The notes beneath the pieces were generated by a model that saw nothing but the letters and a program-made list of their open reading frames with translations, ran no database searches and was not told the DNA's origin. From a virus, in IMG/VR virus record IMGVR_UViG_3300046463_000247, positions 34,046 to 98,045 of that record: DNA of 64,000 bases; one strand, given 5' to 3'. This document shows positions 2,532 to 63,163 of this stretch, one piece after another. Made by a program: the position numbers and the translations under genes. Each line of letters starts with the position of its first letter. Position 1 is the stretch's first letter.

Positions 2532-2546
2532 TGCAATTGATTGCAA
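2532..2546 (+). repeat. Dispersed palindrome, TG centre
   Basis: Intergenic, between the two LamG-like genes. Confidence 0.9.
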
Positions 2547-2548
2547 AA

Positions 2549-3553
2549 TTACGGACGCACCACCACGCCGAACGGCAGGTTCTCTGCATCGTCCAGTGTC
2601 CAGTCCCCGCCGCCCGGAGCCTTGTCGTAGAAGGCGTAGTACATGGCCCAGTCCGTACTCAGGGTCGGTTGCACCACTTCCAGTTGCGCGCCGGGTCCGC
2701 CGAACACCATGCCCAGCTTGCGGTTGTCGATGTCAGTCTTCTTCGCCTGGGCGATCAGGCCCACGGCCAGCACCTGCGAGCCATCGGGCAGGGCAGCGGA
2801 CGACGAGAAGAGGTCCATCGCGCCGCTCACGCCAGACTGGATGTACTTGCTGCCGTCAGCGGGCAGGGAGTTCACCATCTTGTAGTGATCGCTGCCGGTG
2901 GACGGGCTCCATACCGGGGGCGCGCTGCCGCCCGAGATCACATAGTCCGCGTCAGGCAGGCGCGTCGTGATCTGCATCGGGTGCATGCGGCTGTTGATGC
3001 CCGAGGACGCGTCGCACGTGTAGAAGTCGGTGTAGCGCAGTTCGGTCGCCTTGGTCGCGTCGTACGCGCCGTTCGGAGCCAGCACCAGGTCATACGAGGT
3101 CTGCGCGGCAATCGCCGGATCGAGGTCAGCGGATACGTCTAGCGAGTCGTTGACGTAAATGTTCAGCTTCTTGTTCGCGCGGTCCACTTCCAGTTCGTAG
3201 TAGTACCAGACGTTGCGCGCTGGGATCGCCGTGCCGTTGACGCTGCCAACCGAGATTCCGGCGTGCCAGTCGAGTTTGACGCCCGCGATGCTCGCGATAG
3301 GCGCGCGCTCGGTGCCCTTGAACGCGAAGCCCACCCAGAACATGTTGGCGTTGGTGTTGATGGTGCGCCGCACGCCGGGCGCTGCCGCAGCCGTCGCCTG
3401 CTGGAAGGTGAGCGCGGTCGAGTTTGCGATGCGCCCCGGCTGAAGCGCGACGTTCGGCACCGGGTTGACCCAGCCCGCATTTGCCAGCGCAATCGCCAAA
3501 TTCGAAGCGGAGAGCCCATTGAACTGGGCAAAGCCATCCATGTGGAGAATCAT
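2549..3553 (-). CDS. LamG/ConA-like tail protein, copy 1
   Basis: 334 residues. ATG follows GGGGTAACAG; an alternative ATG lies four codons in. It contains WYYYELEVDRANKKLNIYV and PMQITTRLP, which line up with the downstream paralogue. The gap to the preceding DUF2793 gene is 3 nt, so the two are probably translated together. The spacer to the next gene is almost wholly occupied by one copy of the dispersed palindrome. Function is likely tail-tip structural. Confidence 0.75.
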   Translation of the reverse strand: MILHMDGFAQFNGLSASNLAIALANAGWVNPVPNVALQPGRIANSTALTFQQATAAAAPGVRRTINTNANMFWVGFAFKGTERAPIASIAGVKLDWHAGISVGSVNGTAIPARNVWYYYELEVDRANKKLNIYVNDSLDVSADLDPAIAAQTSYDLVLAPNGAYDATKATELRYTDFYTCDASSGINSRMHPMQITTRLPDADYVISGGSAPPVWSPSTGSDHYKMVNSLPADGSKYIQSGVSGAMDLFSSSAALPDGSQVLAVGLIAQAKKTDIDNRKLGMVFGGPGAQLEVVQPTLSTDWAMYYAFYDKAPGGGDWTLDDAENLPFGVVVRP

Positions 3554-3556
3554 CTG

Positions 3557-4291
3557 TTACCCCAGCAGCGTAAGCCGCAAATTGATGCCGATATTCTGAA
3601 AACTGTCCGGGATTTCGTTCGGACAAAGCAGGCTGAGTGCGTCACCCAATGCGAAGACCGTCGAGGTCGCCACGGAGAAGACGCCATTCACCCCATCCTT
3701 CGGGAAGGTGATCGTGCCGACCTTCACCAGCGCCCGCTCAATCGTGATGATCACGTCATCTTCTACGAGCGGTTGCATCAAAATTGCGGCCGATCCCTGC
3801 GCATTGGGCGGCAGTATAGCGGGTTGCAAGTTCGGAATAAACATAATCCGCTCGCCCGGATTCGGCTTAAACATGGCCGAACAGCCGTACTGGAGATAGT
3901 GATTCTGGGCGGGCGGGCCGGTCTGATCGACGGGCGCTCCGGTGCCTGCATCGAGCCACGCCTTGCCGTCGAACCACACCAGCTTGTCGTCCAGCGTCTT
4001 GACACGGAACTGCCACCCGTAGGACGGTTTGAAGAACTTCCACTGGCCTTCGATCTTCACCGCGACTTCGAGGTCATGGCCGGACCACGCCTGCACGGAG
4101 TTCGGCGCACAGATGAAGCGGTCCCCTTCGAGCGCGGTCTGCGGCGGCTGCGCGAGCGTGATCGACTGCACCGCGCCGTGTAGCAGGGTGTCGATCTTGA
4201 CCATGTTCTCGGTCATCGGCCCACCCCAACCGTTTTCCCCCGTGACCCAACCTTCGGACAAGCCTAGGTTGGGCGCTTTCTTTTCTGGCAT
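3557..4291 (-). CDS. DUF2793-like phage tail protein
   Basis: 244 residues, ATG after GGAGCCTTAA. Residues about 25-120 match the DUF2793 pattern: PPQTALEGDRFICAP, AWSGHDLEVAVKIEGQWKFF, PSYGWQFRV, then WFDGKAWLDAG. DUF2793 proteins lie in tail-tip clusters of phages and gene transfer agents. The C-terminal half looks like a beta-rich domain I cannot name. The gene starts directly after the stop of the 1,126-residue tail protein. Confidence 0.75.
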   Translation of the reverse strand: MPEKKAPNLGLSEGWVTGENGWGGPMTENMVKIDTLLHGAVQSITLAQPPQTALEGDRFICAPNSVQAWSGHDLEVAVKIEGQWKFFKPSYGWQFRVKTLDDKLVWFDGKAWLDAGTGAPVDQTGPPAQNHYLQYGCSAMFKPNPGERIMFIPNLQPAILPPNAQGSAAILMQPLVEDDVIITIERALVKVGTITFPKDGVNGVFSVATSTVFALGDALSLLCPNEIPDSFQNIGINLRLTLLG

Positions 4292-7200
4292 TTAAGGCTC
4301 CGTTGGGTTTTCTACAAAAGGTTCGCCCTTATCCCACCCGCGCGACCAGTTCAGACCCCAGCCATACTCCTGCGGGGGCAGTCCACCGCCACCGTTACCG
4401 GAGCCCGGGTCACCGTCAGGTGGCGGGTTGTGCGGGTCAGCCGGGTTGTTCTCGTCGGGCGGCGTATTGCTCGTGCTGTCCGGGTTGTGCGGGTCCGGCG
4501 TGCCGGGGCTCGGGTTGCTGCCTGGCGGGCCGGGCGGCGGGTAGGGCGGCGGTGCGGTCGGGTACGACGGCCACGGCCCGCTCGAACTGGGCTCCTGACC
4601 AGGAGGCGTCTGGTACGGACCGACCACGAACACCCACATGTCGTACGGTTGCCAGCATTCGATGCCGTCGCGGATCGACTCCAGCCGCAGCAGCAACGCG
4701 TGGTTGTCGTCCAGATTGGGCTTGGGCGAGATCGCCATCCCGTTCTTGACCAGGTTGTCGTAGTCGATCTGGATCGCCGCGCGCCGGTCGTAGTAGGCCG
4801 CGTCGAACGCGTACTCCATGCTGTGCCCGGTCAGCCCGGCATAGGTGCGTAGCGTGATCAGCCCGGTCGGCCCCTGCGTCATCACGCGCACGCGGTAGGT
4901 CGTGCCGTTCTCTTCAGCCACGTCCGGGTCGGTGTGGCCGTAGGGCGTCATCTGCTGGGTAATGCGGTTGCGGCCCACCCAGGACAGCGTGATACCGCCG
5001 TCGCTGATGACTGCGCTGTCGAACCACGGGCGCGGACCCTGCGTGCCGTCCTTCATCGAGCGCTGGCCGCTCACCACCACCTGCGCGGGCGGGTAGGGGC
5101 GGGTCTGGCGCGCGCTCGCGATCACGAGGATGCGGGTGTCCGACTGGGGCACCGTCATACCGGGAAGGTCGGGCATGAACGCGAGGTACACCTTGTCCTC
5201 GAAGTAGTGCGCCTTGCCGTCGTCCGCCCAGTTGCAGATTGTCTGCCAGCGCCAGGCGAGCGTACCCGCGCCGTGGATCGCCGGGATCGTGTCGTAGCAG
5301 CCACGCTGAATGCCCACCACGCCGTGCGCGGGGTCCACCGACGTGATCACGACAAGCTCCAGCCCGAGGAACAGCATGTCGCCGACTGCCCAGCCGGTGC
5401 CCGCGAGGGTCGGGCAGTACATGAAGGCGTCCAGTTGCTTGATGTTCTGGCGTATCGGCACACCGTCCTGCCGGAACACCAGCGGGTAGCCTTCGACCTT
5501 GGCGACGCCGGTCGTGAACGGGTACGACGCGTCACTGGTGACGAACTGCTTGGTCCCGTCCGTGTAGGCCAGCTTGTAGCCGGGGCAGGGGTACTTGCGG
5601 TCGTTGATCGAGTTGGTGCCGATGTACGAGATACGCGGGTTAGCCAGCCGCAGCGTGTCCGCCGCGCCGGAGATCGACGCGAGCGGGGCGTAGGGAATCT
5701 CGTAGGCGATGGCCGTCTGGTTGTAGCGCAGCCCCGGTGAGCCGGGCACGGGTTGGCCGTCCCACAGCGAGGGGTCCACGAGGACGATGGCGGTGCGGTA
5801 GGGCTGGTAGCTCTCGTAGCCGTCCGGGCTCACGGTCGTCAGTTCGACCTGCACGACCTGCGGCGTGTGGTAGTCCACGCCATTCGGGCCGGGGTACTTC
5901 TCGCACAGCATCTTCTGGTCAAGCTGCGCCTGGTACGCCGAATAGAAGTAGAACGGGTCGGTGCCCTGGTAGTCTGCCAGTACGTCGTCGCCCGCCTTCA
6001 TGGTGAGCCGGTAGAAGCAGCCGGGCTCCAGATTGCAATCAGTTGCAAAATGGTCCACCACCGTCGTCGCCTGGGACAGCCGGTCACGGGGCTCCCACGT
6101 GAAGATCGTGTCGTAACCCTTCTGCACGTTCGCGCCGACAAACCACGGGTTATCGTTGATGCGGAACAGACCGGGCGGGTAGGGCCGGTGGCTGCGCGCT
6201 TCGATCAGTTCCGGCATGACGCCGGTCTCGTACACCTGCTGCTGATGCGCGATCAGGTCGGTATTGACGGTCTGGTCTTCGAGGTAGTTGCGCCCGTCAC
6301 TGCCCAGCGCGTTGCGCTCGAAGAACCACATGGTCGTGCCGCTCGCGTGCGACGCCGGGATCGTGTCGAGACAGCCGCGCTTGAGCTTGATCGAGCCGTG
6401 CGCGAAGTCGATGTCCACCACCTGCACGACTTCCGCATTACGCCCGTTACTGGCTTCCGAGAGCATCGCCAGCGCGCCCGGCTTCATGCCGCCCAGTGAC
6501 GTGCCGTCGCGGAAATAGACCTGCGTGTCGAATGGCTTGATGTCCTTGGGGATCAGCGCGCCGCTCTGGTTGTACGTCGGGGGCCAGCCGGTGACCGTCG
6601 CAGCCGGGGCGAACGTCGCGGTGGCCCGCTCCCGTAAAGTCTCACCTGAGCCCTGCACCGCTGTTGCCACGCCGTAGTCGGAGCCCGTGATGGTCTTCGG
6701 GTCGCGCAGCATCGCCGTGCCCACCTGATACGAGAGGTCAGCGCGTCCCGCCGCCAGAGCGCTGTAGTAGGCCCACTCGTAGATAAAACCTGCGGATAGT
6801 CGCGTCTGGTTGTCCGGGGCATCGGGCGGCACAATCAGGCCACCGTCATCCCACTGGGCGGGACTCGCCAATATCCGCATTAGCTGTTTTGCTTGCATCT
6901 GGTCCAGTGTGATCGTGAACGGCATGCTGTAGCCCTGCCAGGACTCCCAGCCGTCACGCACCGAATACAGCGCCACCCCGAGACCGTGGCTCGTGCCCGG
7001 CTCGGTGATGTTCGACCGGAACCAGTCGTACGGCAGTTCGAAGTGGTTGTCGGTCGTGGAGAACGACGCGAACTTGACCCCGTTCGAACCGTACAGGTCG
7101 ATCACGTACTGCACGCCCGCTTCCGGCCCGATGTCGCCCATCAGGTGATCAATCACCTTGTCATTCTGGCCGACCCGATCCCGGTGCGCCCACGTGAGGT

Positions 7201-9188: not shown

Positions 9189-9435
9189 CCTGTACTCCCT
9201 GTTCAGCGGCTGCGCGGGCCGTTGCAATCAATTGCAAAGCCAGCACGTCCTTCGTCTTGTCCAAAATCTCGGATGCCATCACGCCCCGCTGCACGAACTT
9301 CCGCCAGTCGAGCCCGCGCTGTTCCGCCCACTGCCTGCCGCCTGAGACACATACCTTCTGCCCGCCGATGCGCACCATGCGCATGTGCGTCGTGGTGACC
9401 AGCACGTCTTCGAGCCCATCCTGAGCCAGTGCCAT
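9172..9435 (-). CDS. Small tail-cluster protein
   Basis: 87 residues, tightly placed between tail genes and overlapping the next start. The N-terminal part is beta-like (EDVLVTTTHMRMVRIGGQKVCV) and the C-terminal part is helical (KTKDVLALQLIATARAAAEQG). A palindrome copy encodes the LQLIA segment. Its position suggests a tail-tip assembly factor; I do not recognise the family. Confidence 0.6.
   Translation of the reverse strand: MALAQDGLEDVLVTTTHMRMVRIGGQKVCVSGGRQWAEQRGLDWRKFVQRGVMASEILDKTKDVLALQLIATARAAAEQGVQDGMRV
9222..9237 (-). repeat. Dispersed palindrome, CA centre, full 16-mer
   Basis: Inside the 87-residue tail gene. Confidence 0.9.
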
Positions 9436-11091: not shown

Positions 11092-11099
11092 GGGTCGCC

Positions 11100-12497: not shown

Positions 12498-15400
12498 TAC
12501 TTGATCCCCAGCATGGTTTTCAGCGTCGGCACGTCGCGTTGCAGGTGCATGAATACGATGTCCTTGCCGTCAGAGCCCGACATCGCCTGCGGCACGCGCT
12601 TGCGCTCGTCCACCAGCACGAAGCGGGACCCGCCATCGCCCTTGCCACCCTTCGGTGCGCCGCCGCCCGCGTCCGTGCCTTTTGCAATTGATTGCAAACC
12701 GGAAGGCATGCCACCGTCCGCGAATTTGTTGATCGAAGACGACATGCGGTTCCTGATCGAGCCCGTCTGGCCGGAATTTAGCGCATAAAGCAGCGGCAGG
12801 TGTTCCTTCGTCGCCTTCTCGTTGACGATAAACTCGTTGTTCGCGACCATCGCCGGGATGCTGTCCGACCGGCCCGTTCCGGGTCCGCTAATCAGGCCGT
12901 GGTTGAGCCGCTTGAAGTCGTCCATGCCGAAGCCGTCCGCGAACTTGCGCACCGGCACGACGCCGCGACGACCCTGTGACGGCAGGCCACCATCGGCGAG
13001 CATCATCATCGCCATCATCGCCATCTGGCCGATCATCTGCCCCCACTGCGCGCCCTGCTTGCCGCCAATTGCCCCACCAATCGCGCCCCCGGCCATGCCG
13101 CCCATCGAGCCCGCCATACCGCCGCCACCGCCAGCCCCACCGTCCGAAAACATGCTGTTGATGCTGTCGAACATCCCGCCCAAGCTGTCCTGCGTCTGGC
13201 CCAGCACACCGCTCAGGCCGGTCGTCAGCGCGTTGCCCATCGAGTCAATCCCGAACCCGCCGTTCGACGCGGTGTTGCCGAGGTCGGTGAACGTCGTATT
13301 CAGGCCGGTTTCGAGGCTGCTCTGGAACGTCGAGAAGCCGTCACCGCCGCCCAGCCCGAACAGCGCGGAGCCGCCCGTGGAGGTCGAGCTATCGAGGTTG
13401 CCGCCGCCCGCGTCGAAGCCGTAGTCATTGCTCGCGGTGTTCCCCATGTTGAACAGGGAGCCAAGGCCCATCGCAGCCCCGCCACGCTTGCCGAAGTTGC
13501 CCATGAGGGTGTTGACAGCCCCCATCAGTCCCGGACCGCCCTGCGTGCTGCCGTTGGTCGTGAAGGTCTGCTTGGTCGCGTCCGCCGAGCGCACCCACAT
13601 CGCGTTGCTCGCGTCCTCACCCAGTTGCCTGCCGCTCTTGCCGCCCAGCCCTTCAGCCAGCTTGTCGAAGATCGAATTGCCCTCGCCGCCCGTCTGATCC
13701 ACGATCCACGAGGTGATCTTCTGCGACAGGTCCTTGGCGATAACCTGGTTGATCGAGTTGACGAAGCTCAGCGCCGCGCCCCGGAAAGCCTCACCAATCG
13801 ACTTCGAGTGCGACATCACGTCGTAGATGCCCTGCGTCAGCGCCTCGGAGAAGTTCGTGCGGATCGAATCGCCCAGCGTGTGGTAGGCCGACGCAAGCTG
13901 GAGAATCTGGTTCTGGTACGAAGCGGCCTTGGTGCGCGCGTCGTCGTACTCCTTCTCCATGCCCAGCGCCTTGTACTGCTCGGCCTGCTCCTGCTCAACC
14001 GCCATCAGCTTGCGGACGTTCTCGATCTCGGCGGTGATCAGTGCGTTGTCGGCGTTGGCGGCACTGATGTCCGTCAGCGCGCCGCGCGAGTTCGCGAGCG
14101 CCACCTGGGCGCGGGCGTTCTCCAGCAGGGTCGCTTGCAGGTTGCCCTGGCGCGTCGTGGCGTCGTTCAGTTGCTGCATCGCCAGCACGTCGGCCTTGCG
14201 TGCGTATTCGGCGTCCAGCAGTTCCTTCGCGCCCTTCACGCTGTCCAGCTTCTTGTGCAGGTCCTCGTACTGCTGCGCGAGCGCGGCCTGAGACCCGGCC
14301 AGCTTCTGGTCGGTCTCCTGCATCGCCTGGAACTTGACGTTGGCGACTTCCTTGTCCAGCGCTTCCTGCTCCTGCGCGCGGGCAATCGCTTCACGCGACT
14401 CGTCGGCTGCGGCCTGGGCGTTGATCTGCTTGATATGGTCGCGCTGCGCCTGAATCTGGTTGTCGATGCCGACGCGCTCGCTGCCGGTCTTGGCCGCACC
14501 CTTGTCGATCTGGAGCGCCTTGATCTGCGCATTCGCCACCGCGACTTCCTGCGCGGCGTTCGCCTTGATCACCTCGGCACGCTTGTTGTAATACGTGTCG
14601 AGGTTCACCAGACCCTGCTGGTAGCCATACTGGTCCGCATCGAGCGCCGCCTGGTTGGCGATCTTCGTCAGCGCGGCGGTGTTCTGCGCGGCCTCCACAA
14701 TCGCCTGCGCGCGAGCCTTGGCAATCGCCCGGCCTTCGTTCAGTGCGGACTCGCCGCCCGCCTTCAGTGCGGCCTGCGCTTCCTTCTCGTGCTGCTTGGC
14801 CTGCCCCATCGCGCCATTCAGCGACGACGTGATGTCCACGCCCGCCGTCTGGGCCATCGCCTTCAGGGCCTCGCCAGCCGCCTGGAATTTCTTCAGTTCC
14901 TCTGGCGACGACACGGTGTCGGCCAGCTTCTCGAACTCCAGCAGCATCGCGTTCAGCAGCGTCTTCGACTGGGCCGAGCCGTCCTTGACGAACGCCTGCG
15001 CGGAGACAATCACGTCCGCCGCCTCGGAGAACTTCTGGGCGATGCCGGTGGTGGCCTGCGACACGTCGATGCCTGCCGCCTGCGCGGCCTCAGCGAAGTT
15101 CTGCCATGCCTTGCTGGCCTCAACCATCGCCTTGGTCTGCGCAGCGGAGCCATCCAGAATCACCTGAATCTGCTTGCGCTGGGCGTCCGACAGGTCGGCG
15201 TTCATCAGGGAGTCGCGCTGCTCCTTGATCGAAGCGTTGGTGTCCTTGATCTGCTTCTGGAGGTCAGCCTGTTGCTGCTTGAGCGTCAGCACGTCCGACG
15301 CCGCCGACGAGCGCGCCTGCGGGGTGGCCTTCTCGTCGTTGGCGATCAGGTTCTTGTCGCTGATCTGGCGCGCGAGGTCCAGGTTCTGCTTCTGCTGGGC

Positions 15401-16997: not shown

Positions 16998-17704
16998 TTA
17001 TTCCTTCAGTAATTCATTCAGGGTTTTCACGAAATCCTTGCCTTCCTGCGTGTGCGCCACCGACCGGTCTATCGTCGCCTGGGTCGCCATCCACGCCTTG
17101 CGGCGCGCGAACGCGGCTTTCACGAGGTGATCAATCGTGCGCAGCGAGTAGCCCCAGATGTCCTGCAACCGGTGCCCCTCACTGGCAAGGAATTCAACAC
17201 TTTCGACCCATGAGTCCGACAGTTCCTCTACGCGGAGAGCAACGGCTCGGTCGATGGCGTCAACGGTGCTGCTTCCTGAGTTGCTGCCTGCGGCTGCTGC
17301 TCGATCCTGGCGCTGGCGTTCTTGCCAAGCTGCCGCAGCGCCGCCGTCGCCTCGGACAACAACTCTTGGAGCTTTTTTGCGTCGGGCACCGACAGCTTGT
17401 AAATCTTCTGGATTGCAATCAATTGCACGGTGCCGGGCAGGCGCTTGATCACGTCGAGATCGTCTTCCGCGTCGGTTCCCATCTTGATCACCTGTGCGAT
17501 GAAGTCCGGCGCGGCCAGCAGGAACTGCGTGTAGTTCGGCTCCTTCTTCTGCGCTTCGGCGTACAGCGAGACGAACGCGTGCTGGTGGTTCATCATCAGT
17601 TCGACAATCTGCAACAGGGACAGTGGGTGCAGGTCGAGCGGGACGCCGGGTGCAACTTCGACCGTCTCGGGTTTGGCGAGCAGGTCGGCAATCTTGATAC
17701 CCAT
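16998..17704 (-). CDS. Tail assembly chaperone GT fusion made by -1 frameshift
   Basis: The T frame has no start of its own but is open to the stop two bases before the tape-measure start. Its last 90 codons read like a real protein (STVDAIDRAVALRVEELSD, GYSLRTIDHLVKAAFARRK). T is in the -1 frame relative to G, as in lambda. Slipping at A AAA AAG joins 111 G residues to 124 T residues, a 235-residue product. The slip lies about 48 codons before the G stop, earlier than in lambda, so the first ~35 T codons (Arg/Ala-rich) are uncertain; a later slip site cannot be excluded. Confidence 0.75.
17228..17704 (-). CDS. Tail assembly chaperone, G-like
   Basis: 158 residues, with a strong CAAGGAGTGAAAC ribosome site. 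It is helical and acidic in the middle, with a Gln/Ala/Pro tail. It lies between tail tube and tape measure, the classical place of lambda G. Codons 109-111 are GCA AAA AAG, forming the heptamer A AAA AAG at 17378-17372, a canonical -1 slippery site that would lead into the overlapping T frame. A palindrome encodes QLIAI upstream of the slip site. Confidence 0.85.
   Translation of the reverse strand: MGIKIADLLAKPETVEVAPGVPLDLHPLSLLQIVELMMNHQHAFVSLYAEAQKKEPNYTQFLLAAPDFIAQVIKMGTDAEDDLDVIKRLPGTVQLIAIQKIYKLSVPDAKKLQELLSEATAALRQLGKNASARIEQQPQAATQEAAPLTPSTEPLLSA
17413..17427 (-). repeat. Dispersed palindrome, CA centre
   Basis: Inside chaperone gene G, about 35 nt upstream of the slippery site. 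Confidence 0.9.
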
Positions 17705-18907: not shown

Positions 18908-19342
18908 TCAGACCAGTTGAACCGGCACGGACCACCGTTGCAGGTACAGGAGCACCGTGTCTTTCTTAGCCGCCTGGGCTTCCACCAGGAACTTCCAGTG
19001 CGCCGCCACCGGGGAGCGGCCCTCGCGCATCGCGGCGCGTACGTCGTCCAGCAGGGCAATCGCGGACGCCTTGTTGTTGTGCCCGGCAAGCTGTTCGATC
19101 TTCGTCATGATCACGAGACCGAACACCGCTTCGCACGAGATACCGCGCTGCTCCTTCGTGTCCACCGACCGCATGCCCTCGTACAGGTAGCAGACCTGCG
19201 GAAACGACGTGCCCTTGATCTTGTTCAGCGCTTCGTCGTCATCGAGCACGAACAGCACGCGCCCCTTCAGAATTGCAATTGATTGCAAACGGGCGTCGAT
19301 GTCGTCCAGGCACTTCTGGACCAGGTTCTCATTCACTCTCAT
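18908..19342 (-). CDS. Probable tail terminator / tail completion protein
   Basis: 144 residues; the start overlaps the preceding stop (ATGA). An alpha/beta pattern with GTSFPQVCYLYEGMR and ISCEAVFGLVIM fits small tail terminator proteins. Position is the main evidence: it lies between the gp10-like gene and the tail tube gene. The palindrome encodes LQSIA in the N-terminal helix. Confidence 0.65.
   Translation of the reverse strand: MRVNENLVQKCLDDIDARLQSIAILKGRVLFVLDDDEALNKIKGTSFPQVCYLYEGMRSVDTKEQRGISCEAVFGLVIMTKIEQLAGHNNKASAIALLDDVRAAMREGRSPVAAHWKFLVEAQAAKKDTVLLYLQRWSVPVQLV
19273..19288 (+). repeat. Dispersed palindrome, full 16-mer
   Basis: Inside the tail terminator-like gene. Confidence 0.9.
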
Positions 19343-19780: not shown

Positions 19781-20677
19781 TCACATTACCGGACGCAGAC
19801 AGAAGCCCAGCGAGTCGCGCGTGTACGGTGCTGCCACCGCGAGCGCATGCTGGCCGCTGGCCTGGTAGTTCTTGATCGTGCCGCTCTGCTCGGCCTGCGA
19901 CAGCCCTGCGGCCATCACGGCGGGTACATAGCCCAGCACTGCCTCCACCAGCCAGTCCGGCGCGAGGTCGGTCGTCTGGGGCACGGGCGTCGGTTCTGCA
20001 ATTGATTGCAGCGGCGTGTCGGACGTGCTGATCAGCCGGTCGTACGGGTAGGCGCTGTCACCGAACAGCGTCACGCCAGGCGAGCCGCCCGCATTGTCGC
20101 CCGTGGTGCCCACCAGACCTGTGTCCTGATCGCCGGTAGGCGGCGTGCCACCCGCCCCCGTACCGCTGCCATCATCCGTAGTGGGAGGCGGCGAATCGGT
20201 CGGAGGCGGGTCGCCAGAAGGGTCGCCCGACGGGTCAGGTTGCGGTGTCGGCTCGGGGATCGGTTCGAAGCCCGCGTTGAACGTCACGCGGATAAAGCGC
20301 TCGTTGTACTTCTTGCGCGGGATCGAAACGACGCCTTTCACATAGTCGATATGGAAGTCCAGCACGGGCACGGGGATCGTGCACCGGTTGTAGTCCGAAC
20401 CCCAATACACTGCCTCGCTGCCCGGCTTGAGCAGACCAGAACGAAGCCGGAGCCGGTAGAGACCGGCAGGCTGAACCCCGCTGAAGCTGTCGGAGTCCAG
20501 GTAAAACACGTCTTCAAAGTCTTTCGACTGAAGCGTTGAGTCAATCAGCGTGCCGATGCGGAGTTGGGCGGCGTCGATGGCGTTCGTGATTGCTTCGTCC
20601 ACCTCGGGCGCTGCAAGCTCTGAAGAGATTTGCATCCGCGTGCGCACCTGCGCGACCGTCACAATACGTGCTGTCAT
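19781..20677 (-). CDS. Head-tail adaptor protein with a Pro/Asp/Gly-rich insert
   Basis: 298 residues. The N-terminus (VRTRMQISSELAAPEVDEAI, AAQLRIGTLID) is the helical pattern of gp6-like head-tail adaptors. Residues ~145-215 are a low-complexity insert of PEPTPQPDPSGDPSGD type, unusual for a ~110-200 residue family. A short helical C-terminus follows. A palindrome in the coding sequence gives LQSIAEP. The insert may be a surface-exposed tether; that is inference. Confidence 0.65.
   Translation of the reverse strand: MTARIVTVAQVRTRMQISSELAAPEVDEAITNAIDAAQLRIGTLIDSTLQSKDFEDVFYLDSDSFSGVQPAGLYRLRLRSGLLKPGSEAVYWGSDYNRCTIPVPVLDFHIDYVKGVVSIPRKKYNERFIRVTFNAGFEPIPEPTPQPDPSGDPSGDPPPTDSPPPTTDDGSGTGAGGTPPTGDQDTGLVGTTGDNAGGSPGVTLFGDSAYPYDRLISTSDTPLQSIAEPTPVPQTTDLAPDWLVEAVLGYVPAVMAAGLSQAEQSGTIKNYQASGQHALAVAAPYTRDSLGFCLRPVM
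19996..20011 (+). repeat. Dispersed palindrome
   Basis: Inside the head-tail adaptor gene; outer bases C and G keep the symmetry. Confidence 0.9.
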
Positions 20678-21129: not shown

Positions 21130-21158
21130 AATATATGCCGCTGTGCAATTGATTGCAA
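21130..21158 (-). promoter_or_regulatory. Candidate promoter using a palindrome as -35
   Basis: TTGCAA, 17 bp, TATATT, just after the capsid terminator and before the 132-residue gene. The -35 hexamer is the first half of a dispersed palindrome, so a protein bound there would cover it. Confidence 0.45.
21144..21158 (+). repeat. Dispersed palindrome
   Basis: Between capsid terminator and next gene, overlapping a candidate -35. Confidence 0.9.
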
Positions 21159-23551: not shown

Positions 23552-23581
23552 ATTTTACGGTAGCGTTTTCGTACCTAACAA
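23552..23581 (-). promoter_or_regulatory. TTGTTA-type promoter for scaffold-like gene
   Basis: TTGTTA, 18 bp, TAAAAT, with CGCTACCG directly before the -10, as in the portal promoter. Confidence 0.6.
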
Positions 23582-24221: not shown

Positions 24222-24235
24222 TGCAATTGATTGCA
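24222..24235 (+). repeat. Dispersed palindrome
   Basis: Between the 52-residue gene and the protease start. Confidence 0.9.
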
Positions 24236-24414: not shown

Positions 24415-26021
24415 AGAATCTCCTTGTACTGCTTGACCGCCGCCTTATCGGACAGGTCCAGCGTCAGTTCGAGGTCCACGCCGTCCAGCAGAAGCTGGTA
24501 CAACGGTCGCCCGTCGATCTCGATGGCAAGCGTCATCAGGTCCGCGAGGCCGCGCACGCTCGACTGGTTCAGCACCGCCTCCACGAACGCAAGCTGCACC
24601 TGGTTCAGCTTTCCTGCAATTGATTGCAACCGGCCACCCGGCTCCATGCCGTCCAGAATCTGAGCACGCAGCCCGTACCAGTCCGACAGTGACGGCGCGT
24701 AGCCCATCGTCGTGTAGGCGGCAATCGACGCGGCGCTGGTCGCGCTGACGACGATCTGGTTGAGCCCGCCTGACTGCGCGACGTGCAGGATGCCCGCCTC
24801 TACGCGCTTGAAGAAAGGCAGGATCGTGTCCGGCGCGAGCTTCTGGAACTCGATGTATGACTTGTAGAGCGTGCCGCTGTACGGGTCGATCACGATGGAG
24901 GCACCGACCGTGCCGTCGCCGAGCTTGTGCTTGGTCGTGACGGTGATGTCGCCGCCCGGCGCGATCTTGATCGGCGTCTTGTTGATCAGCGACCCTTCGA
25001 GGATGTCGAGCGGCTGCACTCCGGCCACCTCAGCGACGACCGCGACCGGCGACAGCGGCAGGTACGCATTCCAGTGATCCAGTTGCGCGGTGTCCACCTT
25101 CACGCCCAGTTCGGTGAAGGCGTCGGCGTCCACGTGCTGCTTCGGAATCACCTGCTCTTCTGCCGTGACGACCGGCGCTTGCAGCTTTGGGGCCTGCCCG
25201 GTGCGGATCAGGATGGTCCGGCAGTTCGGGTGAAACGGCGGGATCATCAGCCCTTCCTCGGTCAGTTGCGCCGCCGACATGTCGCGGTAACGCCCCATTG
25301 AGGTCTTGTCCTGCTTCGGCCATGGCTGGGCCGCTTTTACCGCGTCCGGTGTATCGAGCGACAGGATGTGGACGATGGATGCCCGCGCGTCGGCGACGCG
25401 GAAGCGCTTGCCATTGATCGCGCGACAAAACTCGGACGTGCGTCCGTCCATGACGGCGGATAGCTCGTACTCTTCGATGCCCAGCAGTTCGGCTTCTGCG
25501 GTGAAGCCCCACGTAGCCAGACGGCTACTATGGAGCGACGAAGCCAGCTTGATCGTGTCATTCCCTTCCTCTGCGAACGAAACGAAGTCCTTGACGAAGC
25601 GTTCGGCCTTCTTGACGGTGCTGTTGGCCTCGACCCAGTTTGCAATTGATTGCAACGCGGCCTTCACGACGGCCTGCGAGCCGTTGTACTTCAAGCCCTG
25701 CGTGAAGTTGTCGGCGACGGTGTTCAGCAGCGTGTCGAACTTGCCGACCCCGACAAAGGTCTTGCTCGCGTCGTGCGCGGCGTTCCCGGCCCCATAGACG
25801 GCCATCGCCCGCAGCAGGTACTTGATGTACTCGCGGTTTTTCGTCGCCACCGGGGTCATGTCGATAGCGTGCGCTTCGGTGTAGGCCCCGGCGAGGTCGT
25901 TGGCCTTCAGCCTGGCCGCGATAGCCTGGTAGTACGACGCTGCCAGCGGTTGCCACGTGCGGCGCAGCCGTTGGGTAAGCGCCGTCTCCAGCGCCAGATA
26001 GGTTCGGAAGTCCTGTGCCAT
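24411..26021 (-). CDS. MuF-like head morphogenesis protein with C-terminal extension
   Basis: 536 residues from MAQDFRTYL, whose ATG overlaps the portal stop (TGATG). The MuF core carries AVMDGRTSEFCRAINGKRF and then PPFHPNCRTILIRT, the diagnostic Cys/His pair region. About 230 further residues follow, with a beta-rich stretch (GGDITVTTKHKLGDGTVG) and QIVVSATSAASIAAYTTMGY, which loosely resembles an acetyltransferase-like or toxin-like tail domain. Two palindromes encode LQSIA in this gene. It probably acts at the portal and may be injected. Confidence 0.85.
   Translation of the reverse strand: MAQDFRTYLALETALTQRLRRTWQPLAASYYQAIAARLKANDLAGAYTEAHAIDMTPVATKNREYIKYLLRAMAVYGAGNAAHDASKTFVGVGKFDTLLNTVADNFTQGLKYNGSQAVVKAALQSIANWVEANSTVKKAERFVKDFVSFAEEGNDTIKLASSLHSSRLATWGFTAEAELLGIEEYELSAVMDGRTSEFCRAINGKRFRVADARASIVHILSLDTPDAVKAAQPWPKQDKTSMGRYRDMSAAQLTEEGLMIPPFHPNCRTILIRTGQAPKLQAPVVTAEEQVIPKQHVDADAFTELGVKVDTAQLDHWNAYLPLSPVAVVAEVAGVQPLDILEGSLINKTPIKIAPGGDITVTTKHKLGDGTVGASIVIDPYSGTLYKSYIEFQKLAPDTILPFFKRVEAGILHVAQSGGLNQIVVSATSAASIAAYTTMGYAPSLSDWYGLRAQILDGMEPGGRLQSIAGKLNQVQLAFVEAVLNQSSVRGLADLMTLAIEIDGRPLYQLLLDGVDLELTLDLSDKAAVKQYKEIL
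24615..24629 (+). repeat. Dispersed palindrome
   Basis: Inside the MuF gene, C-terminal part. Confidence 0.9.
25640..25655 (+). repeat. Dispersed palindrome, full 16-mer
   Basis: Inside the MuF gene, N-terminal part. Confidence 0.9.
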
Positions 26022-28077: not shown

Positions 28078-28092
28078 TTGCAATCAATTGCA
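28078..28092 (-). repeat. Dispersed palindrome, CA centre
   Basis: Between polymerase stop and its terminator. Confidence 0.9.
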
Positions 28093-32169: not shown

Positions 32170-32197
32170 ATTCTAACACAATCAGCCGGATAGTCAA
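32170..32197 (-). promoter_or_regulatory. Promoter for DNA polymerase operon
   Basis: TTGACT, 16 bp, TAGAAT. The stop TGA of the long phosphatase-like gene lies inside the -35 box. Confidence 0.75.
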
Positions 32198-35600: not shown

Positions 35601-35629
35601 AATATAGCCGTAAATCAGTCGTGGAGCAA
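35601..35629 (-). promoter_or_regulatory. Candidate promoter for zinc-ribbon gene
   Basis: TTGCTC, 17 bp, TATATT; overlaps the end of the PPDK-like gene. Shares TATATTCGCCG with the candidate at 21.13 kb. Confidence 0.45.
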
Positions 35630-38898: not shown

Positions 38899-39228
38899 TC
38901 AGGCGTTTGCAATCAATTGCAGCCCGCACTCGGGCGCGTCGAGCCGCCGTGCGTTGTGCTGGTAGCAGTCGTAGGTCCAGCCGGTCAGCCAGCCCCGGCC
39001 CACCGTCAGCCGGTATTCGCGGGCCACCGCGACGTAAGGCGGGTCGTTCTCATAGTCGTGGCTCGGCACCGCCACCGGGCGCTCCAGGCCGTGCGCGATC
39101 AGCACCTCGTCGTCGGCGCGCATGGTGCGCAGCAGCCCCAGTGCGACACACACGTGCAGCTTGATCCGGTAGAAGCGGGAAACGGCCTGCTGGTGCCCTT
39201 GCGTGAGCAGCATCTTTTCGATTGTCAT
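38899..39228 (-). CDS. Unknown 109-residue protein upstream of ligase
   Basis: 109 residues from MTIEKMLLTQ. Contains VAVAREYRLTVGRGWLTGW and a helical N-terminus. Ends LQLIANA, encoded by a palindrome copy that forms the last codons before the stop. No recognised family. Confidence 0.6.
   Translation of the reverse strand: MTIEKMLLTQGHQQAVSRFYRIKLHVCVALGLLRTMRADDEVLIAHGLERPVAVPSHDYENDPPYVAVAREYRLTVGRGWLTGWTYDCYQHNARRLDAPECGLQLIANA
38907..38921 (-). repeat. Dispersed palindrome, CA centre
   Basis: Last codons of the 109-residue gene upstream of ligase. Confidence 0.9.
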
Positions 39229-40036: not shown

Positions 40037-40064
40037 ATTCTACCCCAACCCTGCGGATAGTCAA
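40037..40064 (-). promoter_or_regulatory. Promoter for 140-residue gene and ligase operon
   Basis: TTGACT, 16 bp, TAGAAT, with a perfect palindrome 7 bp upstream of the -35. Confidence 0.75.
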
Positions 40065-40071: not shown

Positions 40072-40087
40072 TTGCAATTGATTGCAA
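40072..40087 (+). repeat. Dispersed palindrome, full 16-mer
   Basis: Immediately upstream of a -35 box. Confidence 0.95.
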
Positions 40088-41792: not shown

Positions 41793-41808
41793 TTGCAATT
41801 GATTGCAA
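41793..41808 (+). repeat. Dispersed palindrome, full 16-mer
   Basis: Intergenic, after the 60-residue gene. Confidence 0.95.
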
Positions 41809-43141: not shown

Positions 43142-43459
43142 CTATCGGACCGGGTTCGGGCGTGCGCTTTTGCAATCAATTGCAAGCCCGGCTTCCGCCG
43201 CGTCTTCCGCCGTCACCACCACCCGCGCCAGCCCCTGCCAGTTCGCCAGCCGCGTATTCAGGTTGCGGGCGGCTTCGACCAGCCGGGGCCGGTGGGTTTC
43301 GATCACGTCGCACTCGGCGGGCGTCGCGTAGTTCAGCAGCGTCGCGAGTACTTCGCGTTCCAGCGCCATGAAATCTACGACGATTACCTGCTGATCGAGC
43401 GTCAGGGACCGGGGCCGCAGGTCTGGTTTCCCTGGCAGGTGAATCGTCAGCTTGCCCAT
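43142..43459 (-). CDS. Unknown helical 105-residue protein
   Basis: 105 residues, AAGGGGCTGC before the ATG, after a TTGACC-16-TAGGAT promoter. Helical core (LEREVLATLLNYATPAECDVI, LVEAARNLNTRLANWQG). The palindrome encodes LAIDCKS near the C-terminus. Function unknown. Confidence 0.6.
   Translation of the reverse strand: MGKLTIHLPGKPDLRPRSLTLDQQVIVVDFMALEREVLATLLNYATPAECDVIETHRPRLVEAARNLNTRLANWQGLARVVVTAEDAAEAGLAIDCKSARPNPVR
43171..43186 (-). repeat. Dispersed palindrome, CA centre, full 16-mer
   Basis: Near the 3' end of the 105-residue gene. Confidence 0.9.
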
Positions 43460-45164: not shown

Positions 45165-45192
45165 ATTCTACCTGCTGGGTTGGGATTGTCAA
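45165..45192 (-). promoter_or_regulatory. Promoter for 194-residue gene
   Basis: TTGACA, 16 bp, TAGAAT; the stop of the 67-residue gene lies in the -35 box and a palindrome 11 bp upstream. Confidence 0.75.
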
Positions 45193-45392
45193 ATACGATT
45201 CTGCTGCAATTGATTGCAGGCAGCGGGTTCGCTGACGGCGCTCGGAGCGGCCTCCGGCTCCGGCGCTTCGGCCTCGCCCTTCGCGCGTTGCGCGGCCATG
45301 GACGACTGGCTCCACGTATGGTCGTCGGGCAGCGCCGGTTGGCGGGTGGCGGACAGCAGCGTCTTCAGCAGCGTGGCGAGTCGGGTCAGCAT
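45189..45392 (-). CDS. Small protein whose stop lies in the next -35 box
   Basis: 67 residues; amphipathic N-terminus MLTRLATLLKTLLSA, then an Ala/Glu/Pro-rich tail. The palindrome encodes CNQLQ near the end, and the TGA stop falls inside TTGACA of the following promoter. Upstream are 182 nt with no gene. Function unknown. Confidence 0.5.
   Translation of the reverse strand: MLTRLATLLKTLLSATRQPALPDDHTWSQSSMAAQRAKGEAEAPEPEAAPSAVSEPAACNQLQQNRI
45204..45219 (+). repeat. Dispersed palindrome
   Basis: End of the 67-residue gene, just upstream of a -35; outer C/G pair. Confidence 0.9.
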
Positions 45393-46533: not shown

Positions 46534-46548
46534 TTGCAATTGATTGCA
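46534..46548 (+). repeat. Dispersed palindrome
   Basis: Intergenic, touching the ribosome site of the 175-residue gene. Confidence 0.9.
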
Positions 46549-47489: not shown

Positions 47490-47518
47490 ATTGTGCCCTC
47501 ACTGTAAGGGATTGTCAA
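47490..47518 (-). promoter_or_regulatory. Promoter for 108-residue gene
   Basis: TTGACA, 17 bp, CACAAT; a variant palindrome lies 7 bp upstream of the -35. Confidence 0.55.
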
Positions 47519-47525: not shown

Positions 47526-47541
47526 TTGCAATCAGTTGCAA
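47526..47541 (-). repeat. Dispersed palindrome variant
   Basis: One mismatch (TCAGTT); between a terminator and a -35 box. Confidence 0.6.
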
Positions 47542-48185: not shown

Positions 48186-48539
48186 TCACGAAGCCGGGAC
48201 GTTTTGCAATTGATTGCACGGGCATTCGGCGAGGCCGCGCCATTCGAAGCCGCCGAGCCAGCCGCAACTCCGAAGGTCCGTGCCGCCCGCTCGACCCACT
48301 TCCTTGGCCTTGCCGTTCTCGACCTCGATATAGGCGACGGTGCCCTCTTCGTTCGTCAGCCCGGCGCGCTCGTACTCGAACGGCGAGCCCTTCCAGTCCC
48401 GCTTGCGGACTTCGTACCAGCCGCTGCGTGCCGGAGGCTCACCGCTCACGTTGAACCACTGGGTGCGCGGTGCGGTGGCGAACGGCTCACGGATCGCGAG
48501 GATCGTCGGGTCGGTCTTCATCTTCATGGGCGTGCTCAT
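48186..48539 (-). CDS. Unknown 117-residue protein
   Basis: 117 residues, ATGA overlap. GWYEVRKRDWKGSPFEYERAG and CGWLGGFEWRGLAECPC suggest a small beta domain with Cys; a palindrome encodes CNQLQ near the C-terminus. Resembles short beta modules of phage hypothetical proteins; no name. Confidence 0.6.
   Translation of the reverse strand: MSTPMKMKTDPTILAIREPFATAPRTQWFNVSGEPPARSGWYEVRKRDWKGSPFEYERAGLTNEEGTVAYIEVENGKAKEVGRAGGTDLRSCGWLGGFEWRGLAECPCNQLQNVPAS
48204..48218 (+). repeat. Dispersed palindrome
   Basis: Near the end of the 117-residue gene. Confidence 0.9.
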
Positions 48540-49376: not shown

Positions 49377-49404
49377 AGTATAGCACAATCGCTGGTTTAG
49401 TCAA
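49377..49404 (-). promoter_or_regulatory. Promoter for coiled-coil membrane protein
   Basis: TTGACT, 16 bp, TATACT, identical over about 31 bp to the promoter near 52.46 kb; palindrome 4 bp upstream of the -35. Confidence 0.8.
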
Positions 49405-49408: not shown

Positions 49409-49424
49409 TTGCAATTGATTGCAA
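49409..49424 (+). repeat. Dispersed palindrome, full 16-mer
   Basis: 4 bp upstream of a -35 box. Confidence 0.95.
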
Positions 49425-52451: not shown

Positions 52452-52479
52452 AGTATAGCACAATCGCTGGTTTAGTCAA
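52452..52479 (-). promoter_or_regulatory. Promoter for long coupled string of small genes
   Basis: TTGACT, 16 bp, TATACT, a duplicate of the 49.38-kb promoter; palindrome 4 bp upstream of the -35. Confidence 0.8.
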
Positions 52480-52483: not shown

Positions 52484-52499
52484 TTGCAATTGATTGCAA
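52484..52499 (+). repeat. Dispersed palindrome, full 16-mer
   Basis: 4 bp upstream of a -35 box. Confidence 0.95.
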
Positions 52500-53128: not shown

Positions 53129-53156
53129 AATTTAACACAACCCTGCGGTTAGTCAA
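53129..53156 (-). promoter_or_regulatory. Promoter for 112-residue gene
   Basis: TTGACT, 16 bp, TAAATT; the stop of the tiny ORF lies in the -35 and a palindrome 16 bp upstream. Confidence 0.65.
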
Positions 53157-53257
53157 TCAGTGCGGTCGGTTTTTGCAATTGATTGCAACTTTTGTGGCGG
53201 ATTCCACGCGTACAGCCATGCGCGCCACCACAGCGTCGTGAGCGTCAGCAGGCTCAT
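53153..53257 (-). CDS. Tiny Trp-rich ORF downstream of dUTPase
   Basis: 34 residues, ATG overlapping the dUTPase stop (ATGA). MSLLTLTTLWWRAWLYAWN could insert in a membrane; the palindrome encodes KLQSIAK and the TGA stop falls inside the next TTGACT -35 box. Supported only by the overlap. Confidence 0.4.
   Translation of the reverse strand: MSLLTLTTLWWRAWLYAWNPPQKLQSIAKTDRTD
53173..53188 (+). repeat. Dispersed palindrome, full 16-mer
   Basis: Upstream of a -35 box, inside the tiny 34-residue ORF. Confidence 0.95.
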
Positions 53258-53707: not shown

Positions 53708-53722
53708 TTGCAATTGATTGCA
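53708..53722 (+). repeat. Dispersed palindrome
   Basis: Just upstream of the dUTPase ribosome site. Confidence 0.9.
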
Positions 53723-56116: not shown

Positions 56117-56132
56117 TTGCAATTGATTGCAA
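56117..56132 (+). repeat. Dispersed palindrome, full 16-mer
   Basis: Between terL and the methyltransferase gene. Confidence 0.95.
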
Positions 56133-58116: not shown

Positions 58117-58132
58117 TTGCAATTGATTGCAA
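58117..58132 (+). repeat. Dispersed palindrome, full 16-mer
   Basis: Upstream of terL, beside the 10-bp inverted repeat. Confidence 0.95.
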
Positions 58133-58710: not shown

Positions 58711-58739
58711 AGTTTAACCCAACGCGCCGGGATTGTCAA
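58711..58739 (-). promoter_or_regulatory. Promoter for 85-residue gene and terL string
   Basis: TTGACA, 17 bp, TAAACT; a perfect palindrome lies 7 bp upstream of the -35. Confidence 0.6.
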
Positions 58740-58746: not shown

Positions 58747-58762
58747 TTGCAATCAATTGCAA
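58747..58762 (-). repeat. Dispersed palindrome, CA centre, full 16-mer
   Basis: Upstream of a -35 box. Confidence 0.95.
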
Positions 58763-58766: not shown

Positions 58767-59690
58767 TCACTGCCCCCGTGGTGGCACTTCGTCCACCGGC
58801 CCCGCGTCTTTCGTGGTGCGGGAATTTGCAATCAATTGCAAAAACTGATTCATGTCGTTCTCGTCGCTGTACGAACCCTGACGGCCCGTGTTGATCGCGG
58901 CAAACGGATCGGTCGGCGCGGCAATCTTGAACAGGCCCACGCGGGTCAGGAAGTTGTGCTTGGCGTCCTCAGCCCGCAACGCCACCTGCAATGCGGCGAC
59001 CTGCACCTTGCCCTCCCGCTTCTGGTCCATTGCCATCCGCAGCGACTGGGTGCGCACCTCGTCGTACAGGGCCATCGACATGCCGATGTAGGTCGGGTAG
59101 TCGAAGTTGCGCAGTTCCTCACGCATCGCGAATTGCAGCGCCATCCGGTCCTCGTGCACCTGCCGCACGGTCAGCGCCAAGTGGGCGGCGATGGTCTTCG
59201 TCGGCACGCCGTTCAGCATCAGTCGCAGCACCTGCTTGCGGCGGAACTCGATGTCCTCGGCAGTCGGCTTGTGGCGGCGTCCATCTGCGGCCAGCTTGAA
59301 CTCGCCTGCCCGTTGCGAACCCGTGCGCGGCACCTTCGCCTGATCCAGCAGGGCGTCCAGTTCCTCGGCGGTCTGCGGCACCTCGCGGCCCTTGGTGGTC
59401 GGCGCACCGTACGCCCCGCCATTCAGGTCGATACTCGCGTCGGGCAAAATCTCTTCCACCTTGAGGCTCGGGCGACCCACCCGCCCACGTTTCTTTTTCC
59501 CGTGCGAGGCCCCGGCAGGCTGCGACGGGCCAGCGACCGGGGATTTGACGGTGTTCGGTGGGGTACTGAAGTCCACGTCCTCTACTTGTGGGGAGTTGAA
59601 CGTCAGTGTGGGCAGGTCGTCTTCTTCGTCGGTTTCCTGTTTACGGTCAACGACTTGCGACGGTTGCTTGGTGAGGAAGTTGAGTGCCAT
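58767..59690 (-). CDS. Probable terminase small subunit
   Basis: 307 residues. Disordered N-terminal ~110 residues with a basic patch (GKKKRGRVGRPSLK), then a helix-turn-helix (LRLMLNGVPTKTIAAHLALT) and long helices (YDEVRTQSLRMAMDQKREGK). Small terminases are HTH proteins encoded beside terL, so gene position supports the call; length is above average. Palindromes lie in its 3' end and just after its stop. An operator-like inverted repeat lies upstream. Confidence 0.65.
   Translation of the reverse strand: MALNFLTKQPSQVVDRKQETDEEDDLPTLTFNSPQVEDVDFSTPPNTVKSPVAGPSQPAGASHGKKKRGRVGRPSLKVEEILPDASIDLNGGAYGAPTTKGREVPQTAEELDALLDQAKVPRTGSQRAGEFKLAADGRRHKPTAEDIEFRRKQVLRLMLNGVPTKTIAAHLALTVRQVHEDRMALQFAMREELRNFDYPTYIGMSMALYDEVRTQSLRMAMDQKREGKVQVAALQVALRAEDAKHNFLTRVGLFKIAAPTDPFAAINTGRQGSYSDENDMNQFLQLIANSRTTKDAGPVDEVPPRGQ
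58826..58841 (-). repeat. Dispersed palindrome, CA centre, full 16-mer
   Basis: Inside the small terminase-like gene, 79 bp from the previous copy; the closest pair in the window. Confidence 0.95.
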
Positions 59691-59878: not shown

Positions 59879-59893
59879 TTGCAATTGATTGCA
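59879..59893 (+). repeat. Dispersed palindrome
   Basis: Beside the DUF1643 terminator. Confidence 0.9.
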
Positions 59894-61768: not shown

Positions 61769-61783
61769 TGCAATCAATTGCAA
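61769..61783 (-). repeat. Dispersed palindrome, CA centre
   Basis: Between terminator and the Cys-rich gene. Confidence 0.9.
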
Positions 61784-62391: not shown

Positions 62392-62397
62392 GTCGGT

Positions 62398-62413
62398 TTG
62401 CAATTGATTGCAA
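62398..62413 (+). repeat. Dispersed palindrome, full 16-mer
   Basis: Between methylase-like stop and the next gene. Confidence 0.95.
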
Positions 62414-62415
62414 CG

Positions 62416-63081
62416 TCAGGCGGCGAGCGCCTGCGCTTTAAGGTGAGGTGCATTGTGCAGGAATACGGCCTGTGCGAACCCCATTGGCGTCGCGCTGCGG
62501 ATGTTGCCACGCTCTTTCGACGGCGGGGCCTTGTGGATGCGGTCGTCAGGTACGCCCAGCGACAGGTCCTCGCACTTGGGCGGCATCACGAAGTCGCCAA
62601 TCGGCCAGATTTGCGTGTTCTTCGTGTAGTTGTCCTCCGCACAGTAGCCCGTGTAGTGGTGCGGGTGGAACGAGTGCTTGGCCTTGCCGAACACGCGCGA
62701 CAGCACGCTTACCGGATTCTCCACCAGCCCGGCTGCGCCGCTCAGTTCGGCGATCATGCGGCACTGCTCGGCCACCGCGACGGCCTTCGCCTGGAACATC
62801 GGGTCGAGTGAGCGCTTGTGCTCGAACCACCGCGCGCCGGAGACGGCCATGTCCGTGCAGGGCGGGAAGCCTGCGACGAACACCACGTTTTCTTCGCGGA
62901 TGATCCGGCCCAGTTCGCGCACGCAGCCCAGTATCGTGTACGGGTAGCGCCGGATGTTGCCGCTGATCGAGAACACCCCGTGCTGCCGGTCCACCAGCAC
63001 TGCGCGGTAGCCCGCCTTTACCCAAGGTTCCACGAAGTTGCCCGTGAGGTCGCACAGGCTGATAATCGTACCCCTATCCAT
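62416..63081 (-). CDS. DNA cytosine methyltransferase-like protein
   Basis: 221 residues. IISLCDLTGNFVEPWVKAGY resembles SAM motif I, and RAVLVDRQHG motif II. VVFAGFPPCTD-type motif (VAGFPPCTDMAVSGARWFE) carries the Pro-Cys of C5-cytosine enzymes, and GLVENPVSVLSRVFG corresponds to the ENP motif. It lacks an obvious target-recognition domain, as in other short phage members. It may protect phage DNA from restriction or act on nucleotides. Confidence 0.75.
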   Translation of the reverse strand: MDRGTIISLCDLTGNFVEPWVKAGYRAVLVDRQHGVFSISGNIRRYPYTILGCVRELGRIIREENVVFVAGFPPCTDMAVSGARWFEHKRSLDPMFQAKAVAVAEQCRMIAELSGAAGLVENPVSVLSRVFGKAKHSFHPHHYTGYCAEDNYTKNTQIWPIGDFVMPPKCEDLSLGVPDDRIHKAPPSKERGNIRSATPMGFAQAVFLHNAPHLKAQALAA

Positions 63082-63114
63082 TGCCGGTCCTTTTGGTCCA
63101 TTTTTGTTGTCGGC

Positions 63115-63143
63115 ATTCTAGCTGGCGGCGGTTTCCCTGTCTC
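63115..63143 (-). promoter_or_regulatory. Candidate promoter for methylase-like gene
   Basis: GAGACA, 17 bp, TAGAAT; palindrome 5 bp upstream of the -35. Confidence 0.45.
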
Positions 63144-63148
63144 GCCTT

Positions 63149-63163
63149 TTGCAATCAATTGCA
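63149..63163 (-). repeat. Dispersed palindrome, CA centre
   Basis: Between the right-edge gene and the methylase promoter. Confidence 0.9.

Follow-up and report, generated by a model that had tools for sequence, protein, structure and literature searches.

Dispersed phage operators that stop transcription elongation are best characterised in the cluster A mycobacteriophages. Elsewhere, the KorB/ParB system of RK2 employs a short palindrome dispersed over the plasmid, in part at promoters and in part far from them, for global repression and partition; RacA in Bacillus has dispersed 14-bp palindromes; and the temperate plasmid phage P1 carries dispersed operators of one repressor, C1, with the repeated elements of SPbeta as a further case. 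Here we describe a family of dispersed palindromic sites in the viral record IMGVR_UViG_3300046463_000247 (98,045 bp; G000), of which a stretch of 64,000 nucleotides (the window; record positions 34046–98045) was the starting material; positions below are those of the window unless given as record positions. The site network is common to a whole, previously unrecognised phage lineage. We give about even credence to the reading that a single DNA-binding protein, made by the phage and controlling its own gene, binds these sites, where it would repress promoters and act as a roadblock, with the uncharacterised family PHROG 17202 as the candidate.

In function, the system that comes closest by analogy is the operator/stoperator network of the cluster A mycobacteriophages (PMC9283540, PMC6550527), for which the repressor–DNA structure of L5 Rep has been solved (PMC9283540). 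Both have tens of 13–14-bp sites genome-wide, located at promoters and short gene junctions, with motifs that differ from one relative to the next, a site before the regulator gene (here a candidate) and extrachromosomal members, which in cluster A rely on parABS; the orientation preference of the cluster A sites is matched strongly in some genomes of the present lineage and weakly in G000. In contrast, the L5 site is asymmetric, 13 bp long and bound by a monomer, whereas the arms here are palindromic and drift symmetrically; the candidate has no similarity to any solved protein and so no match to L5 Rep; and the lineage is a different one with Gram-negative hosts, about half of its sites being intragenic and many of its promoters site-bearing. 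Because the site is palindromic and the candidate is unlike solved proteins, the network is not a member of the cluster A stoperator family. The original prediction had proposed L5 as the best parallel; site density, the sites at promoters and junctions, an orientation bias that varies between genomes and motif drift uphold this, the symmetric arms do not, and binding by a repressor is something we infer. P1 C1 and SPbeta share with the network the dispersed arrangement, but their sequences and lineages are unrelated, a comparison made by description only.

Abundance and symmetry of the sites

The recount agrees with the predicted number of sites. Between positions 2532 and 63163 the window holds 33 exact copies of the 14-mer TGCAATTGATTGCA/TGCAATCAATTGCA on either strand, 16 of which are the full 16-mer TTGCAATCAATTGCAA, plus two near copies with one mismatch each, at 6034 and 47527, both TGCAACTGATTGCA. 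Neighbouring sites lie 79 bp to 6.7 kb apart, matching the proposed interval of 0.1–7 kb. The whole record contains 50 exact and two one-mismatch copies in 98 kb, a density of one per ~2 kb, and no match to a control pattern. The chance expectation in the window is 0.0002–0.0009 copies (Markov order 1–3), and shuffled sequences, the comparison suggested beforehand, give approximately none. The 14-mer had no copies in the one bacterial metagenome-assembled genome (MAG) examined, and the motif was not found in the literature searched.

The sites had been described as symmetric, which is correct for the arms and incorrect for the centre. Palindromy is confined to the 6-bp arms, and in copies with perfect arms the centre is always TG/CA in the record; since the centre is fixed, each site has a direction. 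The two directions occur at a ratio of 33:17 in G000 and at 29:1 and 21:1 in relatives. In most genomes of the lineage, sites are spaced more regularly than chance would give. All called genes of the record (133 or 134, ~92% coverage) lie on one strand. Genes in unannotated records were called by a simple home-made caller, and IMG/VR records are possibly incomplete.

Coupling of the sites to promoters and gene ends

The placement of the sites is far from random. In G000, 30 of the 52 sites are intergenic against 4 expected, and they occupy two main positions, one 0–6 bp behind a stop codon, where the stop-to-site gap peaks, and the other just upstream of a start codon or promoter. Promoter regions and short intergenic spaces thus both carry sites, as in a stoperator network. 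The record has a conserved promoter class (approximately GTTTGACAAWCC...TANAAT), and −35 boxes are found 2–12 bp downstream of sites in 17 cases against 0.45 expected, all on the gene strand, with none at that distance on the antisense strand. Sites cluster 4–8 bp ahead of the −35 boxes of strong promoters, and the preferred gap of 8 bp is seen again in G001, G003, G006, SIO-2, KarBoss and DLP5; secondary gaps lie near 18 bp. Terminator-like hairpins precede several sites. When genomes are pooled, 147 of 208 intergenic sites are in the antisense orientation (P=1e-9), a preference that is overwhelming in G002, G014, KarBoss and SIO-2 and weak in G000.

Intragenic sites favour one reading frame and the 3' ends of genes. 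The network is under selection. Relatives carry the 14-mer, as the original prediction required of a maintained family, and for 5 of the 13 testable intragenic sites the diverged orthologues have a site at an identical codon position. Because the sites are defined by their letters, we draw no evidence from the identity of third positions within shared sites (94% vs 36%).

Distribution and drift of the motif across the lineage

By DNA polymerase, the nearest named relatives are the Stenotrophomonas phages DLP5, DLP3 and Summit, followed by Vibrio, Rhodobacter and Rhizobium siphoviruses of 80–101 kb. DLP5 and Summit each have 26 exact copies of the 14-mer, and large metagenomic relatives, whose polymerases are ~30–64% identical to that of this phage, have 22–47. 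Drifted versions of the site are present in Vibrio SIO-2, KarBoss and VHS1, Rhodobacter RcZahn and Rhizobium RHph_Y1_11, while further networks were detected in Rhodobacter RcTiptonus, Rhizobium L338C, Aeromonas HJ05, a natural 109-kb Rhizobium plasmid and ~50 metagenomic contigs. Among these contigs the half-site has changed in both arms together, to GGCAAT, CGCAAT, TGCACT, TGCAGT, TGCAAC or TGAAAT, which points to a dimeric DNA-binding protein with changing specificity. Within one genome, site variants alter single arms and are not compensated, which argues against an RNA hairpin. The motif keeps to the phage lineage and drifts along with the phages, whether the host is Stenotrophomonas, Vibrio, Rhodobacter, Rhizobium or Aeromonas, which gives no support to the earlier suggestion of a host-encoded binder. 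No network sites were found in the first 50 kb of Dinoroseobacter R5C.

That same R5C sequence (L170) has over-represented palindromic words of its own, GCGTTTAAAC in nine copies and ATAAG-N3-CTTAT in four, possibly another dispersed family. A repeat family unrelated to the 14-mer, the AT-rich palindrome AAAATATATTTT, occurs 15 times in G014:56619-70517, nearly all within 8 kb.

A candidate binder in the replication module

A strong candidate at record positions 10735–11538, an uncharacterised helical protein of 267 amino acids (PHROG 17202), lends weight to the earlier suggestion that the gene of the binder may lie beyond the window. The protein has a counterpart in the S. maltophilia laboratory phages DLP5 and Summit (DLP05_067). 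The candidate gene lies in the ruvC/recA replication module, which is core to all members of the lineage, and it is present in 14 of 14 network genomes with that module; conversely, all 14 large relatives examined that carry the gene have sites. The candidate was singled out by this co-occurrence before gene families were ranked by upstream sites. In the ranking of families common to at least five genomes, it came first, with a site ahead of the gene in 10 of 13 genomes (P=4e-6). Over 44 viral loci, a site of the genome's own type lies within 300 bp upstream of the gene in 26, against 5.9 expected, frequently in the layout [site]-~8 bp-TTGACA-17-TATAAT, and in several loci the site standing before TTGACA is a genome-specific variant, such as TGCAACTAGTTGCA in L228 and TGAAATTAATTTCA in L229.

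In a prospective test, five records were fetched through the candidate protein alone and then inspected for sites: DLP3 (84% identity to the candidate), L338C and the Rhizobium bangladeshense plasmid p7 (32%), Aeromonas HJ05 (32%) and RcTiptonus (27%). All five contained a dispersed network and a site directly before the candidate gene, and in three the motif was of a different type. Plasmid p7 has 61 sites at 11/12 or better, TGCA-N6-TGCA occurs 48 times in L338C, 18 times in HJ05 and 35 times in DLP3, and RcTiptonus has 27 nearly uniform sites of the form TGCAA-N4-TTGCA. Co-occurrence and the site-bearing promoter make this protein the best candidate for the one that binds the sites; if it is, the p7/L338C protein would bind TGCAACnnGTTGCA and not TGCAATTGATTGCA.

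The AlphaFold model of the candidate is all-helical and confident (mean predicted local distance difference test score, pLDDT, 86.6), and among named viral proteins it comes nearest to DUF3102 and, with weak similarity, to Spo0J/ParB-like phage proteins. From the sequence, the C-terminus had been read as a ribbon-helix-helix, but neither the model nor the fold search confirmed this. Relatives of the candidate were not found in the GTDB genome collection except on one MAG contig.

Other proteins considered as binders

KorB resembles the present case in its short, dispersed palindromic site but differs in having a ParB_N CTPase domain; Pfam detects none in the candidate, and the lineage's own ParB_N proteins neither track the network nor are common to all network genomes. 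The ParB_N protein adjacent to TerL is missing from G000, G002, G013 and G016, all of which bear the network and have other ParB_N proteins in its place. It was therefore rejected as the binder, and partition by this protein is disfavoured. In G000, left of the window, the replacement of the TerL-adjacent ParB of DLP5 consists of two ParB_N-domain proteins (record 3596–5161 and 5158–5880, minus strand). The larger has a long C-terminal part that looks methyltransferase-like; the pair is common to G013 and G016 and resembles a gene pair in p7. DLP5 DNA has been reported to be heavily modified (PMC5834331).

The parallel to RacA consists of the 14-bp dispersed palindromes and of a MerR-like helix-turn-helix protein in this phage (record 15745–16179), whose PDB matches include RacA. 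However, the MerR-like protein is absent near the network in L216, L224, L235, L238, L239, L243 and others, and from RcZahn, RHph_Y1_11 and G008; because several network-bearing genomes lack it, it is probably not the binder. A small winged-helix-like protein (35145–35444) is also disfavoured, being found in only seven relatives and not in G013 or G016, where the exact 14-mer is present.

Lifestyle and proposed function

DLP5 is reported to be a phagemid (PMC5834331), DLP3 to be temperate and probably a phagemid (PMC7326821), and VHS1 to be extrachromosomal in its lysogen (PMC3148565). The database entry for p7 describes a plasmid from a sequenced R. bangladeshense, and it contains phage structural genes. 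RcZahn and RcTiptonus are reported to be apparently virulent (PMC8601537).

In the mechanism that we propose, the protein would bind as a symmetric dimer at ~50 places on a circularised or plasmid-like genome with one-way genes. At strong sigma70-type promoters, its own above all, the site lies just upstream of the −35 box and the bound protein would repress initiation. At gene ends, junctions and gene interiors, it may act as a roadblock that splits read-through transcription into segments, as stoperators do. In its general form, the proposal is a phage-wide regulatory system not described before, in which PHROG 17202 would be a new family of helical DNA-binding proteins, acting on the promoter of its own gene and on 20–60 evenly spaced palindromic sites, sectioning or silencing unidirectional, plasmid-capable genomes of 80–120 kb, with specificity types that diversify like immunity groups from Vibrio to Rhizobium hosts; we hold this to be about evenly balanced between true and false. 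The network is retained in apparently virulent members and so does not serve immunity alone; this retention, together with the location of the candidate in the replication module, favours a global regulator of transcription that does more than confer immunity.

Several observations weigh against this proposal. Roughly every second site is intragenic, and for most of these no promoter can be recognised. Some genomes show little or no orientation bias (20/30 in G000, 11/23 in G013). A site at about −50 could also serve an activator. The candidate has no fold match in the PDB (E>0.8), no significant Pfam or NCBIfam match and none among the sequences of solved structures. Covariation of protein and motif, assessed by partial Mantel and column tests, gave P=0.010 for the whole protein with a helicase control and P=0.53 with a stricter control, and r=0.137 (P=0.055) for its first helix-turn-helix-like segment. 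The candidate gene is missing from G014 despite its 22 exact sites, although the G014 record lacks nearly the whole replication module. The network is also kept in RcZahn and RcTiptonus though they are reported to be apparently virulent (PMC8601537).

The main rival, a clearly less probable but serious possibility, is a genome-organising or partition system in which the same or another protein compacts, anchors or segregates the plasmid-like genome, as KorB/ParB or RacA do, with promoter proximity incidental or secondary. The more even than random spacing in most genomes and the conserved positions of intragenic sites are consistent with it, as are the extrachromosomal life of members (PMC5834331, PMC3148565; p7), the weak structural resemblance of the candidate to Spo0J/ParB-like phage proteins and the likeness of the MerR-like protein to RacA. 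Against it stand the clear coupling of sites to promoters, terminators and stop codons, the absence of the TerL-adjacent ParB and MerR-like proteins from network-bearing genomes as described above, and the persistence of the network in apparently virulent members. That persistence bears also on a lysogeny-only immunity system, in which the sites would be true stoperators of an immunity repressor and virulent relatives recent derivatives with decaying sites. Temperate plasmid-like members (PMC5834331, PMC3148565) and symmetric specificity types resembling heteroimmune groups suit this explanation; we nevertheless regard it as unlikely, as RcTiptonus, reported to be apparently virulent (PMC8601537), keeps nearly uniform sites and the candidate belongs to the core replication module of all members and not to a separate immunity locus.

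The fixed 8-bp gap to the −35 box, with its secondary value near 18, places the site intermediate between those of classical class I and class II activators and would also suit an activator or temporal switch that stimulates early or middle promoters from just upstream of the −35 box, intragenic sites feeding the promoters of downstream genes; retention in apparently virulent phages is compatible with such a role. But the site-linked promoters are already near consensus, equally strong promoters of the same class exist without sites, many sites have no promoter in reach, and promoter sites occur in both orientations, so that activation appears rather improbable. An element acting in the transcript, such as a hairpin, an RNase site or an antitermination site, is the least credible explanation and in our judgement very improbable: the arms could pair in RNA and a stop codon often precedes the site, but both orientations occur, single-arm variants within a genome are uncompensated, and many sites precede a −35 box, so that the transcript from that promoter would not include them.

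If the proposal of a self-regulating repressor and roadblock protein is true, the lineage provides a second, unrelated network of this kind in culturable Stenotrophomonas, Vibrio, Rhodobacter and Rhizobium phages, together with a specific candidate binder. One-way transcription control in a phage genome without an integration site, and the joint change of specificity of a binder and its operators at tens of sites, would then be testable. The network also bears on therapy candidates of the lineage, which are called lytic, yet have relatives that form plasmids.

Positions of individual sites and neighbouring genes

All site-linked promoters of the window are on the minus strand. The sites at 40073..40086 (+), 47527..47540 (−; the one-mismatch copy TGCAACTGATTGCA, behind a terminator-like hairpin) and 58748..58761 (−) lie 8 bp upstream of the −35 boxes of the sigma70-like promoter TTGACT-16-TAGAAT (40037..40064) and of TTGACA-17-CACAAT (47490..47518) and TTGACA-17-TAAACT (58711..58739), respectively. 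The gap is 12 bp between the site at 45205..45218 (+) and TTGACA-16-TAGAAT (45165..45192), and 17 bp between 53174..53187 (+) and TTGACT-16-TAAATT (53129..53156). Two sites, at 49410..49423 (+), 8 bp after a stop codon, and at 52485..52498 (+), 2 bp after one, are each 5 bp upstream of the −35 box of a TTGACT-16-TATACT promoter (49377..49404 and 52452..52479).

Sites in narrow junctions include those at 2532..2545 (+; 3 bp behind a stop codon and 11 bp ahead of the following start), 53709..53722 (+; 4 bp after stop, 11 bp before start) and 62399..62412 (+; 3 bp after stop, 7 bp before start). A stop codon stands 5 bp before the sites at 41794..41807 (+) and 46535..46548 (+), 11 bp before that at 58118..58131 (+) and immediately before that at 63150..63163 (−). 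Terminator-like hairpins precede the sites at 21144..21157 (+), 59880..59893 (+) and 61769..61782 (−), the last being 10 bp before a start. The site at 24222..24235 (+) occupies the junction after the capsid protease-like gene region, where the gene family concerned has a site before its start in 10 of 14 genomes; that at 28079..28092 (−) separates the DNA polymerase and portal genes, and that at 56118..56131 (+) is intergenic.

Within genes, the codon position of the site at 19274..19287 (+) is the same in G001, G006, DLP5 and G014, and that of 25641..25654 (+) in G001, G002, G003, G006 and DLP5; the position of 33959..33972 (+) recurs in G006, and that of 36427..36440 (−), within a kinase/phosphoenolpyruvate (PEP)-synthase-like gene, in DLP5, G001, G006 and G008. 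Further intragenic sites are at 9223..9236 (−), 17414..17427 (−), 19997..20010 (+), 24615..24628 (+) and 31414..31427 (+), and the other one-mismatch copy TGCAACTGATTGCA is within a tail gene at 6034..6047 (−). The site at 38908..38921 (−) is 9 bp from the end of its gene, and the 3' ends of genes are also close to the intragenic site at 43171..43184 (−) and to the sites at 12683..12696 (+; tape-measure gene), 48205..48218 (+) and 58827..58840 (−; gene 58767–59690).

The kinase/PEP-synthase-like protein (35615–37570) and two tyrosine-phosphatase-like proteins (34098–34589 and 32194–32982) are conserved near each other across the lineage. The DNA polymerase frames of G001, G003, G011 and G014 are 1087–1686 amino acids long and match in separate pieces, and the helicases of G001 and G008 have ~790 amino acids; these long frames suggest inteins in several relatives. 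A second promoter-like class, TTGTTAGGTNC-N~9-GTANANT, occurs at four places, of which three are near structural genes, with 5' ends on the minus strand at 23581, 18902 and 42045 and a fourth at the equivalent of window position −3665, and could represent late promoters. A word resembling a ribosome-binding site, AAGGAGTG, is strongly conserved, with 16 copies on the gene strand of the record and a single copy on the opposite strand.

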